Notes under the pieces: generated by a model
Seen by the model: the letters and a program-made list of their open reading frames with translations, nothing else
Database searches by the model: none
Told to the model about the DNA's origin: nothing
Source of the DNA: Pseudanabaena yagii GIHE-NHR1
Lineage (GTDB): Bacteria; Cyanobacteriota; Cyanobacteriia; Pseudanabaenales; Pseudanabaenaceae
Direction of reading: 5' to 3'
DNA length: 64,000 nucleotides
Assembly (NCBI RefSeq): GCF_012863495.1
Contig: NZ_JAAVJL010000002.1
Coordinates: 312,501-376,500, forward strand
Program-made: the position numbers and the translations under genes
Shown here: positions 3,181-62,076 of the stretch, piece after piece
How the letters are laid out: each line of letters begins with the position of its first letter
Numbering within the stretch: the first letter of the stretch is position 1

Positions 3181-3285
3181 CTAAAGTTCCACCCAATAGT
3201 TATCAAAATTTTGGCGTAATTAGTTAATCTGCAAGGATTGGAAGCATTGCTTAGCGATAAGGGACTTGCTATTAAAGTACCTGTG

Positions 3286-3329
3286 GCTTCGGCTCCGCTC
3301 AGCCAACGTTAGCTGAGCGAAGTCGAAGC
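3286..3329. repeat. Imperfect inverted repeat related to the MITE-A core
   Basis: Arms of 18 bp (GCTTCGGCTCCGCTCAGC and its complement with two mismatches) flank an 8-base loop. The same core (CTCCGCTCAGC...GCTGAGCGAAGTCGAAGC) forms the centre of the two 102-bp elements at 7119 and 61553, but the flanking arms of those elements are missing here. It lies in the 216-bp gap between the membrane protein gene and radC; nothing else is recognisable in that gap. Confidence 0.7.
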
Positions 3330-3396
3330 TAGATAACTTTGGTGAAACATTTTTTATCCGCAAGAGCCTAAATGCAAACTGATCTGGAAAACACAA

Positions 3397-7074: not shown

Positions 7075-7119
7075 ATAAATTTTTGTGCCGCCCGCTACGC
7101 GGGCGGCACAAAAATTTAT
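7075..7119. terminator. Perfect 21-bp hairpin downstream of nblS (GC-TAC-GC centre)
   Basis: The arms at 7075-7095 and 7099-7119 are exactly complementary, with a TAC loop closed by GC on both sides. The stem is GC-rich inside and A/T-rich outside and starts 12 bases after the nblS stop, so it could act as a terminator. Its last base is also the first base of the neighbouring MITE-A copy. Confidence 0.75.
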
Positions 7120-7220
7120 AGTTGTTTTAAATAATTTGCAGAGGGGCTTCGACTCCGCTCAGCCATCGGTGTAAGCTAGCTGAGCGAAGTCGAAGCTGTA
7201 GTTCTTATTTAAATTATCTA
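7119..7220 (+). mobile_element. MITE-A copy 1 (102 bp, TA target duplication)
   Basis: This 102-bp element runs from TAGTTGTTTTAAATAA to TTATTTAAATTATCTA, so its ends are imperfect inverted repeats of the form TAG-N4-TTTAAATAA. The flanking bases are TA at 7117-7118 and TA at 7221-7222. An inverted copy at 61553-61654 differs at four positions. It encodes no protein. The TA duplication is the signature of IS630/Tc1-type transposases, which presumably mobilise it in trans. Confidence 0.85.
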
Positions 7221-7229
7221 TATCAAATC

Positions 7230-12675: not shown

Positions 12676-12805
12676 TAACGTCAGTTCGGGTTAAGCTGGC
12701 AAATTTTAAAAATCCAAAAGTAAAAGCCTTGCTTAGCAAGGCTTTTACTTTTGGGCTTTGAGAGAGGGTTTGCATAGCAAACCCTCTCTCAAAGCCCGTT
12801 TCAAA
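12676..12805 (+). repeat. Composite repeat B, copy 1 (empty site for MITE-A)
   Basis: It begins TTAACGTCAGTTCGGGTTAA and carries two abutting perfect hairpins: 12714-12754 (19-bp arms, TTA loop) and 12753-12797 (21-bp arms, ATA loop). A second copy with the same order lies at 61535-61788, and a truncated inverted one at 47478. The right terminal repeat seen in copy 2 is missing here. At the TA of 12692-12693, copy 2 carries an inserted MITE-A. Confidence 0.85.
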
Positions 12806-47471: not shown

Positions 47472-47477
47472 GTTAGT

Positions 47478-47556
47478 TAACGTGAGTTCGAGATAATTTG
47501 AAATGGGCTTAAGGTTTGCTACGCAAACCTTAAGCCCAAAAGTAAAAGCCTTGCGG
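47478..47556 (-). repeat. Composite repeat B, truncated copy 3 (inverted)
   Basis: GTTAACGTGAGTTCGAGATA with ATTTGAAATGGGCTT, a perfect 15-bp hairpin (47505-47537, TAC loop) and AAAAGTAAAAGCC follow the right end of the 61535 copy read in reverse. The second hairpin stops after AAAGCCTTGC. The gap 47472-48123 holds this repeat, the tRNA gene and two more hairpins, and no protein gene. Confidence 0.75.
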
Positions 47557-59958: not shown

Positions 59959-61512
59959 ATGCTGAACTCGCGCATGGTCTTGTCTCGTAAAAGTTTGTTT
60001 ATCGGTGTAGGAATAGTTAGTGTTGCCGCGATCGCCAATGCACTATTTTCGCTGGAACATGATTGGCACTTACTGAGCCTTAGTACCCTGATGGTTGGCG
60101 GGACATTGCTGTTTGTAAATGTGCGTCAGAGTTTAGCAACGGTCATTGAGGAGCCAATAGTAATCGATCGCAGCTTTTTATTTAAAGAATTGCGACAGGC
60201 TCAAAAGACGATCGCTAAAATTGCCAATATCAGTAGACGTGAAGCTTTAAACGAACAAGCGCAGCAAATCACCAGCAATTTACAAAAAAACAACTTTCGG
60301 ATCGTGGTTTTCGGTACAGGTTCCGCAGGGAAAACCTCAGTTATTAATGCTTTGTTGGGACGCAAGGCAGGTAAAACTGCGGCAACTATTGGCACAACGA
60401 TCACCCGTGAAGAGTATGGCTATCAAGGTATTGATTTTTCGCCTGTCGGCATTACCCCAATTCATACCGAAAAGATTAAGCGCCAAGTTTCCTTGTTAGA
60501 TACATCAGGGATTCAGGAAATGGGTGAGATGGGTCAGCAGCGTGAATTAGAGGCAATTAAACTAGCGCAAAATGCTGATCTGATGGTATTTGTCACCGCA
60601 GGAGATTTGACTAATACGGAATACCGCGAACTTGATCGCCTTGCGAGTTTAGGTAAGCGGGTCATTCTTGCCTTTAATAAAACTGATTTATATTTACCCA
60701 GCGATCGCGAGTATGTGATCAATCAACTCAAGGCGCGTACTCAACAATTTTTAGCCGCAACTGACGTTGTAGCGATCGCGGCAAACCCCAGTCCAATTAA
60801 AGTCCGTCAATATGCCAATGCCGAAGCTTCAGCCAGCCATGAAGCAACGCAAGAATGGTGGGAAAATGTACCGCCTGATGTAGCAGCTTTGAAAGAGCGG
60901 ATTGAAACGATTTTGTCTAATGAGTGGGAAGATTTGCTGATTCAAAATACCCATCTCCAGATCCAAAGCTTGCTACAGGAAATCAATGGCACGATCAATC
61001 AAGAGCGTCGCCAAGATGCCCATACAATTATTAATCGCTACCAAATTATTGCGGCGACTACAGTTTTTGCGAATCCAATTCCTGCCCTTGATTTATTAGC
61101 AGGCGCAGCAATTAATACACAAATGTTGCTCGACCTCGCCAAAATTTATGATCGACCCTTAAATTTTAAACAGGCGCAGCAATTGGCAACGACGATCGCG
61201 CAGCAGCTATTACAACTCGGTTGCATTGAGATTGCGACTTCTGCGATCGCTTCTTGCTTTAAGGTCAATGCAATCACCTATGCGATCGGTGGCTCGATGC
61301 AGGCTGTGACTGCGGCATACTTGACCCATATCGGTGGCATGAGCTTTGTGGAATATCTAGAACAACAACCCGAAACTGCTATTACGACTCCCGCAGCCAG
61401 CAATGCTTTACAAAACTTATGTCAAAAGACCTTTAAATCGCTTCAAAGTGATCGCTTTTTCCTCGATTTTGTCACCCAAATTTCCAAACGTATCGCGATC
61501 GCTACCACATAA
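59959..61512 (+). CDS. Membrane-associated GTPase with DUF697-like C-terminal domain
   Basis: 517 residues. N-terminal hydrophobic segments (SLFIGVGIVSVAAIANALFSL; LMVGGTLLFVNV), then a TrmE-Era-like GTPase domain with G1 GTGSAGKTS, G3 DTSGIQE and G4 NKTD. The C-terminal region resembles DUF697 (ANPIPALDLLAGAAINTQMLLDLAKIY). Such proteins are common in cyanobacteria with unknown role, perhaps membrane or stress related. ATG at 59959. The TAA lies in a short inverted repeat. Confidence 0.85.
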   Translation: MLNSRMVLSRKSLFIGVGIVSVAAIANALFSLEHDWHLLSLSTLMVGGTLLFVNVRQSLATVIEEPIVIDRSFLFKELRQAQKTIAKIANISRREALNEQAQQITSNLQKNNFRIVVFGTGSAGKTSVINALLGRKAGKTAATIGTTITREEYGYQGIDFSPVGITPIHTEKIKRQVSLLDTSGIQEMGEMGQQRELEAIKLAQNADLMVFVTAGDLTNTEYRELDRLASLGKRVILAFNKTDLYLPSDREYVINQLKARTQQFLAATDVVAIAANPSPIKVRQYANAEASASHEATQEWWENVPPDVAALKERIETILSNEWEDLLIQNTHLQIQSLLQEINGTINQERRQDAHTIINRYQIIAATTVFANPIPALDLLAGAAINTQMLLDLAKIYDRPLNFKQAQQLATTIAQQLLQLGCIEIATSAIASCFKVNAITYAIGGSMQAVTAAYLTHIGGMSFVEYLEQQPETAITTPAASNALQNLCQKTFKSLQSDRFFLDFVTQISKRIAIATT

Positions 61513-61536
61513 ATACAGCTCGTTGCGCTGTATTTA
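61510..61536. terminator. Short inverted repeat containing the GTPase stop
   Basis: TAAATACAGC and GCTGTATTTA flank TCGTTGC. The stop codon is the first three bases of the left arm. Confidence 0.55.
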
Positions 61537-61788
61537 ATGTCAGTTCGAGTTATAGATAATTCAAATAAGAACTACAGCCTCGACTTTGCTCAGCTAGCTT
61601 ACACCAATGGCTGAGCGGAGTCGAAGCCCCTCTGCAAATTATTTAAAACAACTATAAGCTGGCAAATTTTAAAAATCCAAAAGTAAAAGCCGTGCATAGC
61701 ACGGCTTTTACTTTTGGGCTTTGATAGAGGGTTTGCTACGCAAAGCCTCTATCAAAGCCCGTTTCAAATTATCCCGAACTCGCGTTAA
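61535..61788 (+). repeat. Composite repeat B, copy 2, interrupted by MITE-A
   Basis: Left end TTAATGTCAGTTCGAGT, right end TTATCCCGAACTCGCGTTAA, so the element has imperfect terminal inverted repeats. Inside are two hairpins in the same order as at 12676: 61677-61717 (19-bp perfect arms, ATA loop) and 61716-61760 (21-bp arms, TAC loop, one mismatch). A 102-bp MITE-A splits the left part at TA. Confidence 0.85.
61553..61654 (-). mobile_element. MITE-A copy 2, nested in repeat B
   Basis: Inverted relative to copy 1 (7119-7220), with four differences in 102 bases. It is flanked by TA at 61551-61552 and 61655-61656. Removing the element and one TA recreates CAGTTCGAGT-TA-AGCTGGC, which matches the uninterrupted site at 12682-12700. 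Confidence 0.9.
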
Positions 61789-61835
61789 TGCAACAAAAAA
61801 GCCTCGCAACGCGAGGCTTTTTTGTTGCATTAACG
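61783..61835. terminator. Perfect 25-bp hairpin, terminator of psb30 (GC-AAC-GC centre)
   Basis: The arms at 61783-61807 and 61811-61835 are exactly complementary, with six A and six T around the GC core. It begins five bases after the psb30 stop on the minus strand and merges with the end of repeat B. Confidence 0.88.
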
Positions 61836-61839
61836 AAAA

Positions 61840-61971
61840 TTAAAGGTCGCCACTGTTAGCAGATAACAAGAAGATGATGACGGGACCAGATAGCACGATC
61901 AAAGCTAGGCTGGTTAATTGGAAAATTAGCTGAAAGTTGATGCTCGACAAGGCAGAAGTTACAAAATCCAT
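61840..61971 (-). CDS. psb30: Photosystem II reaction centre protein Psb30 (Ycf12)
   Basis: A 43-residue gene: an N-terminal stretch MDFVTSALSSINFQL, then one membrane helix with the family pattern LTSLALIVLSGPVIIFLLSA and the short tail NSGDL. Psb30/Ycf12 is a single-helix subunit at the edge of photosystem II near cytochrome b559, and LIVxSGPxxI with a Gly-(Asp/Asn)-Leu end is its signature. The N-terminus is ~10 residues longer than the forms I know; an internal start is not obvious. The strong hairpin right after the stop supports an expressed unit. Confidence 0.8.
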   Translation of the reverse strand: MDFVTSALSSINFQLIFQLTSLALIVLSGPVIIFLLSANSGDL

Positions 61972-62076
61972 AGCAGTTATCTTAAATATGATTAATTAAT
62001 CGAACAAAATTCTAGAGTTATTCTAGCAAGCATCGCTACTCAAAAAAACGTCTCATACCAAATCCGATTTAGATAG

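Follow-up and report, generated by a model that had tools for sequence, protein, structure and literature searches.

The interrupted repeat and its empty counterpart

The window, by which we mean the whole stretch of 64,000 nucleotides of Pseudanabaena yagii GIHE-NHR1 that was analysed, contains a dispersed hairpin-forming repeat (repeat B) that is split in one of its copies by a gene-less element of 102 bp, termed MITE-I. A second copy of the element, a copy of repeat B that has remained unsplit, and partial relatives of both sequences occur in the same window, as follows.

61535..61786, plus strand: copy of repeat B interrupted by the MITE, running from TAATGTCAGTTCGAG to GAACTCGCGTT, with near-perfect hairpins at about 61672-61722 and 61716-61760
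61551..61552, no strand assigned: left TA of the target duplication, from the filled and empty sites compared
61553..61654, plus strand: MITE-I copy, 102 bp, gene-less; its ends are TAGATAATTCAAATAA and, with the right end reverse-complemented, TAGTTGTTTTAAATAA; the arms of its inner hairpin are GCCTCGACTTTGCTCAGC and GCTGAGCGGAGTCGAAGC
61655..61656, no strand assigned: right TA of the target duplication, from the same comparison
7119..7220, minus strand: second MITE-I copy, identical at 98 of 102 positions, with TA at 7117-7118 and at 7221-7222
12676..12805, plus strand: copy of repeat B lacking both the MITE and the right end of B; empty TA at 12692-12693
47477..47554, minus strand: partial relative of repeat B, 75.6% over 90 columns
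3285..3330, minus strand: relative of the inner palindrome of the MITE, matched solely at element positions 24-76, with 77% over 53 columns

A sequence-only reading of the window had proposed that the element interrupts repeat B exactly at a TA, and comparison of the two sites bears this out. The filled site reads GTCAGTTCGAGT-TA (61551-61552)-102 bp (61553-61654)-TA (61655-61656)-AGCTGGC, and the empty site GTCAGTTCGGGT-TA (12692-12693)-AGCTGGC. The filled site is longer by 104 bp net and the empty one has a single TA, so that the duplicated target is TA and not TATA. The empty site had been placed at 12682-12700, which is valid for the region of insertion, but the B copy that harbours it (12676-12805) is incomplete, lacking a right end that most repeat B copies possess. 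A closer empty site is found in a further repeat B copy (L113), which has the same GAG as the filled site and equals it letter for letter (GAGTTAAGCTGGC, that is, CAGTTCGAGT-TA-AGCTGGC).

The second copy, said to lie between TAs at 7119-7220, does so, on the minus strand. The ends of the element had been given as TAG-N4-TTTAAATAA; this formula fits the right end, but the left end of the copy at 61553-61654 has TTC and not TTT, and reads TTCAAATAA. A blastn search with that copy recovered the one at 7119-7220 with an E value of 2.6e-44, and a 22-base core pattern, allowing up to three mismatches, matched three times in the window and never in 100 shuffles, so that the match between these repeats is not due to chance.

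A dispersed family bordered by TA

The genome searched comprises 5.57 Mb in 9 contigs. The exact element gave at least 45 matches in it (best 40 of 171 candidates scored), and the terminal pattern, with at most one mismatch, gave 79, including both ends of a 909-bp insertion sequence (IS) described below. After deduplication, near-full copies number at least 34 for MITE-I (102 bp) and at least 11 for a second form, MITE-II, which is about 101 bp long, has the same first 16 bases at its left end, a related right end, and an inner palindrome of the same kind. These 45 copies remain from 50 deduplicated blastn rows after removal of five that were incomplete or contained the palindrome alone (L104, L105, L106, one row of L118 and one of L102). 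At L102 (C1:2931300-2933700) a MITE-I and a MITE-II copy stand about 0.2 kb apart, with a short remnant of an IS630 transposase between them.

Flanks other than TA would have spoken against the original proposal; TA is present on both sides of 32 of the 34 MITE-I copies and 9 of the 11 MITE-II copies. One MITE-I exception, L036 (C3:129666-129764), is separated from its right end by a different element of IS630 type, about 1.06 kb long, which occupies an internal TA (locus L273, C3:128200-130000) and has ends that are CAGCAAATTCCGATCAAACCCGCCACA or nearly so. The lost end, AAACAACTA followed by TA, is found beyond the inserted IS, and when this insertion is allowed for L036 counts as a 33rd TA-flanked copy. 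The other MITE-I exception, L070, is located in a rearranged copy of repeat B, and in the two MITE-II exceptions, L108 and L111, the left TA is replaced by AA and CA respectively.

Twelve of the 34 MITE-I copies are identical over all 102 bases and occupy different sites, which indicates recent spread. Beyond the TA itself the insertion sites have little in common, and their flanking sequences are unrelated. There is no general preference for hairpins as targets: the 45 joined empty sites have a median folding energy of -13.7 (mean -16.2), compared with -13.6 (mean -14.2) for 900 control TA sites drawn from the same loci with gene positions ignored (Mann-Whitney p = 0.33). In 2 of 50 junction rows the joined site is spanned by an open frame of 100 codons or more; this set includes the 5 partial rows, and the terminal bases of MITE-II remained in the joined sequence.

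Repeat B is itself dispersed; it is about 148 bp long, with two long hairpins and the inverted ends TAACGTCAGTTCGGG and AACGCGAGTTCGGG (best 40 of 193 candidates), and the two arms of its stems vary together. Direct repeats of 4 to 6 bases border 8 of 19 two-ended rows (among which L137 and L142 represent one copy in overlapping loci), whereas 500 shuffles gave 0.9 on average and never more than 5; repeat B may make short target duplications of its own. Five of the 45 MITE insertions lie within repeat B, at three positions, and a sixth (L113) lies at its edge. The TA of GTTAAGC in B has been hit by the copy at 61553-61654, by another at C1:1228338, and by a MITE-II copy in a relative of B (L114); the remaining points are an arm of the first hairpin (L098) and a TTTTAAAA stretch (L070).

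These insertions bear on two readings in which the MITE did not enter this B copy on its own account. According to one, the 102 bp are no transposon at all but a variable stretch within repeat B that recombination can add or remove; its position exactly within B at the window locus is what this account would predict, and the sequence-only reading had itself named constant association with B as an observation that would speak against its own proposal. With repeat B absent across 40 of the 45 insertion points (one of the 40 lying at a B edge) and the flanks unrelated, we rule it out and attach next to no probability to it. According to the other, a single MITE insertion into B was followed by movement of the nested pair as one unit, carried by B or by recombination. 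The B copies at 61535-61786 and C1:1228338 would suit such a history, having their MITEs in the same TA and sharing the variant CAGTTCGAG, which is absent from the 30 B copies listed; all 14 bases of B to the left of the MITE and 100 of the 102 MITE bases are equal between them, and the locus orthologous to 61000-62060 in two other genomes (G015 and G023) has neither repeat B nor the MITE, the entire nested block being missing there. Yet a third B copy with CAGTTCGAG, that of L113, has its TA empty, showing that the variant existed without the MITE, and to the right of the MITE only 55 of 66 B bases agree between the two nested copies, against 100 of 102 within the MITEs. The MITE-II copy in the corresponding TA of the B relative L114 moreover indicates that this TA has been hit repeatedly. 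Joint movement accordingly seems unlikely to us; the empty TA of L113 and the greater divergence of B than of the MITE make independent insertion of the MITE into B the more likely course.

A candidate helper and the probable mode of movement

The sequence-only reading had suggested searching for an IS630-family element with matching terminal repeats, and the genome contains one.

G000:C2:668179-669087, on the same contig as the window and about 290 kb away from it: full-length IS630 element of 909 bp, flanked by TA

This IS has perfect 26-bp ends, TAGTAAATTCAAATAAGAACTAGAGG, identical at both sides, and two open reading frames, of which ORFA matches HTH_Tnp_IS630 (PF01710, 5.7e-38) and ORFB matches DDE_3 (PF13358, 1.3e-33). 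It is the only full-length match in the genome among the best 40 of 56 candidates; two further matches are short, and one of these, at C1:2110529, resembles an end. Compared with the 26-base IS end, MITE-I agrees at 22 positions on its left and at 17 on its right (there at 12 of the first 16), the similarity being clearly better on the left. When all 92 TATAG sites on both strands of the window were scored over 16 bases, one site reached 14, one 13 and two 12, with the rest at 10 or less; by their letters, these four correspond to both ends of each MITE copy in the window. The same IS ends also occur in contigs of P. frigida ULC066bin1 and of Pseudanabaena sp. M085S1SP2A07QC, and in the latter (L196/L198) a relative of the IS is interrupted by about 1.3 kb of other DNA.

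ORFA and ORFB are joined by a run of eight adenines (A8). An 80% identical IS in genome G004 likewise has two frames, with an A8 run in the same place, and the run recurs in the P. frigida IS; this conservation suggests programmed slippage rather than decay. A transposase divided in this way would require a frameshift or slippage for its production. Given that 4 of 26 positions on the left and 9 of 26 on the right differ from the IS, there may be, or may once have been, a helper whose ends fit more closely. An IS630 lineage is therefore the probable source of mobility for the MITE, with the 909-bp IS as an imperfect match; judging from the ends, its transposase, or that of a close relative with slightly different ends, would act on the MITE in trans.

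The earlier assignment to the IS630/Tc1 type is upheld by the TA duplication, the TA flanks across the family, and the presence of an IS630 element with similar ends. We class the unit as a MITE on account of that duplication, its short, multi-copy form devoid of a transposase gene, its resemblance in the ends to an autonomous IS630 element, and a helper with HTH_Tnp_IS630 and DDE domains. It is very probable, in our view, that the 102-bp unit is a non-autonomous IS630/Tc1-mariner-type MITE, that it is moved by an IS630 lineage such as that of C2:668179-669087, and that it landed in a TA of repeat B. In favour of this reading we also count the absence of both repeats from the orthologous locus of G015 and G023, and the contig breaks at TA+102+TA in G008 described below. 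A transposase of the lineage represented by the 909-bp element would recognise the MITE ends, excise the MITE and, by analogy with ISY100, paste it into a TA that is duplicated in the process; the copy at 61553-61654 would have landed in the TA of GTTAAGC within its repeat B copy. The cut-and-paste chemistry assumed here is modelled on that of ISY100, an IS630-family element whose transposase alone makes the double-strand breaks that free the element and joins its ends to a TA, which is duplicated (PMC2170065); the MITE data fit this mechanism.

Movement might instead depend on another transposase family, or on the palindrome of the element itself in the manner of REP/RAYT systems, with the TA flanks belonging to the element. 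What lends this some colour is that the inner palindrome alone, at about positions 25-77 only, recurs in many Pseudanabaena genomes. A single TA at empty sites and two at filled sites argue against TA as a part of the element, the insertion sites are alike in little except TA, and an IS630 element with similar ends is present in the genome; we regard such alternative movement as very improbable, and retain the IS630-type MITE as our reading.

Among known systems, the cyanobacterial MITE Nezha, reportedly described by Zhou et al. in 2008, is said to be short, dispersed and hairpin-forming like the element in the window. ISY100 of Synechocystis (IS630/Tc1-mariner; PMC2170065) has in common with the system described here the TA target and its duplication, the HTH and DDE domains of the helper, and short terminal inverted repeats; it differs in that the window element is gene-less and the local helper is in two frames at A8, ISY100 being described as coding for one protein. 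The MITEs of Anabaena sp. 90 are also short, dispersed and hairpin-forming, and 132 of 147 are intergenic (PMC3542288), a likeness to the present family, in which a long open frame spans the joined site in 2 of 50 rows. They were classed as type II because their resemblance to the inverted repeats of that strain's own ISs was not evident, whereas the genome studied here contains an IS with similar ends. REP-type palindromes (PMC3733652) offer a likeness in that the inner hairpin is also found without ends across the genus, but the ends and the TA duplication of the window MITE are of the IS630 type. No description of this MITE was found among publications on it or on Pseudanabaena transposable elements, judged by their titles and the beginnings of their abstracts, and a text search of PMC11448079 gave no match.

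The Pseudanabaena IS630-type MITE family is real and well delimited; its mechanism is already known, and the degree of surprise is moderate to low. It provides a case of a bacterial Tc1/mariner-type MITE that is exact to the base, with filled and empty sites, a candidate helper, two subfamilies and identical copies across lineages. It is also a handy natural substrate for asking how far IS630 ends can drift and yet stay mobilisable, and is suited to studies of how non-coding elements spread between cyanobacteria.

Distribution in Pseudanabaena and the inner palindrome

Among 26 Pseudanabaena genomes, including that of the window, the window copy found matches in 19 and the consensus in 20, many of these being to the inner palindrome only. 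Matches spanning 95 or more of the 102 positions occur in at least 8 of the 26 (the window's own genome, G004, G006, G007, G008, G013, G015 and G019). Of 12 genomes from the same family but outside the genus, 3 yielded weak matches, with E values of 2e-4 or worse.

The 102-mer shared by the 12 identical copies also occurs letter for letter in G007 and G006, although 497 bases compared at the window locus show only 86% identity between the genomes; the flanks of the identical copy in G007 match those of none of the 34 MITE-I copies. Likewise, copy L098 is identical to the form found in 12 of the 15 G008 loci compared, the stretch at the window locus being 80% identical between the two genomes, and a comparison of its flanks with 16 G008 loci (of 107 ends) yielded nothing beyond short, repeat-like matches. 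We take recent movement between species, with multiplication afterwards, to be the best explanation of these identities.

G008, a draft of about 770 contigs, contains 107 MITE ends by pattern (at most two mismatches), many of them at contig tips, so that one copy may count twice. In all 15 loci compared there, the contig ends exactly 2 bases (TA) past one end of the 102-mer, implying that the unit blocking the assembler is TA+102+TA; another set of ends lies 20 bases from the contig tips, showing that not all of the breaks are at that unit. ORFB of the IS found no match in G008 at E values up to 0.001, and the single HTH_Tnp_IS630 match there has no TA-bounded inverted ends in its locus, with a lone AATTCAAATAA nearby; both observations weigh against the proposed helper.

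The palindrome GCTTCGACTYCGCTCAGC with its inverted copy is present in MITE-I, in MITE-II and beside other insertion sites (L069, L082 and L107), and it stands without the MITE ends at many places in the genus. It looks like a separate repeat situated between IS630-type ends in two MITE forms; it may have been captured by such ends or, conversely, the free palindromes may derive from the MITEs. A search of the literature for its letters found no paper. A broader scenario can be put forward tentatively, as possible although we would not favour it: IS630-type ends would have enclosed one widespread, separate palindrome at least twice (MITE-I and MITE-II), and the resulting MITEs would cross species borders within Pseudanabaena and burst by means of a resident or briefly present IS630 transposase. 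The thought of borrowing across species arises from G008, which has the most nearly identical copies and shows no related transposase.

At L069, L082 and L107, MITE copies lie within a third palindromic repeat that contains the same inner palindrome; this repeat has GGGACATTTTTTATCCGCAA in L082 and L107, and a similar start in L069.
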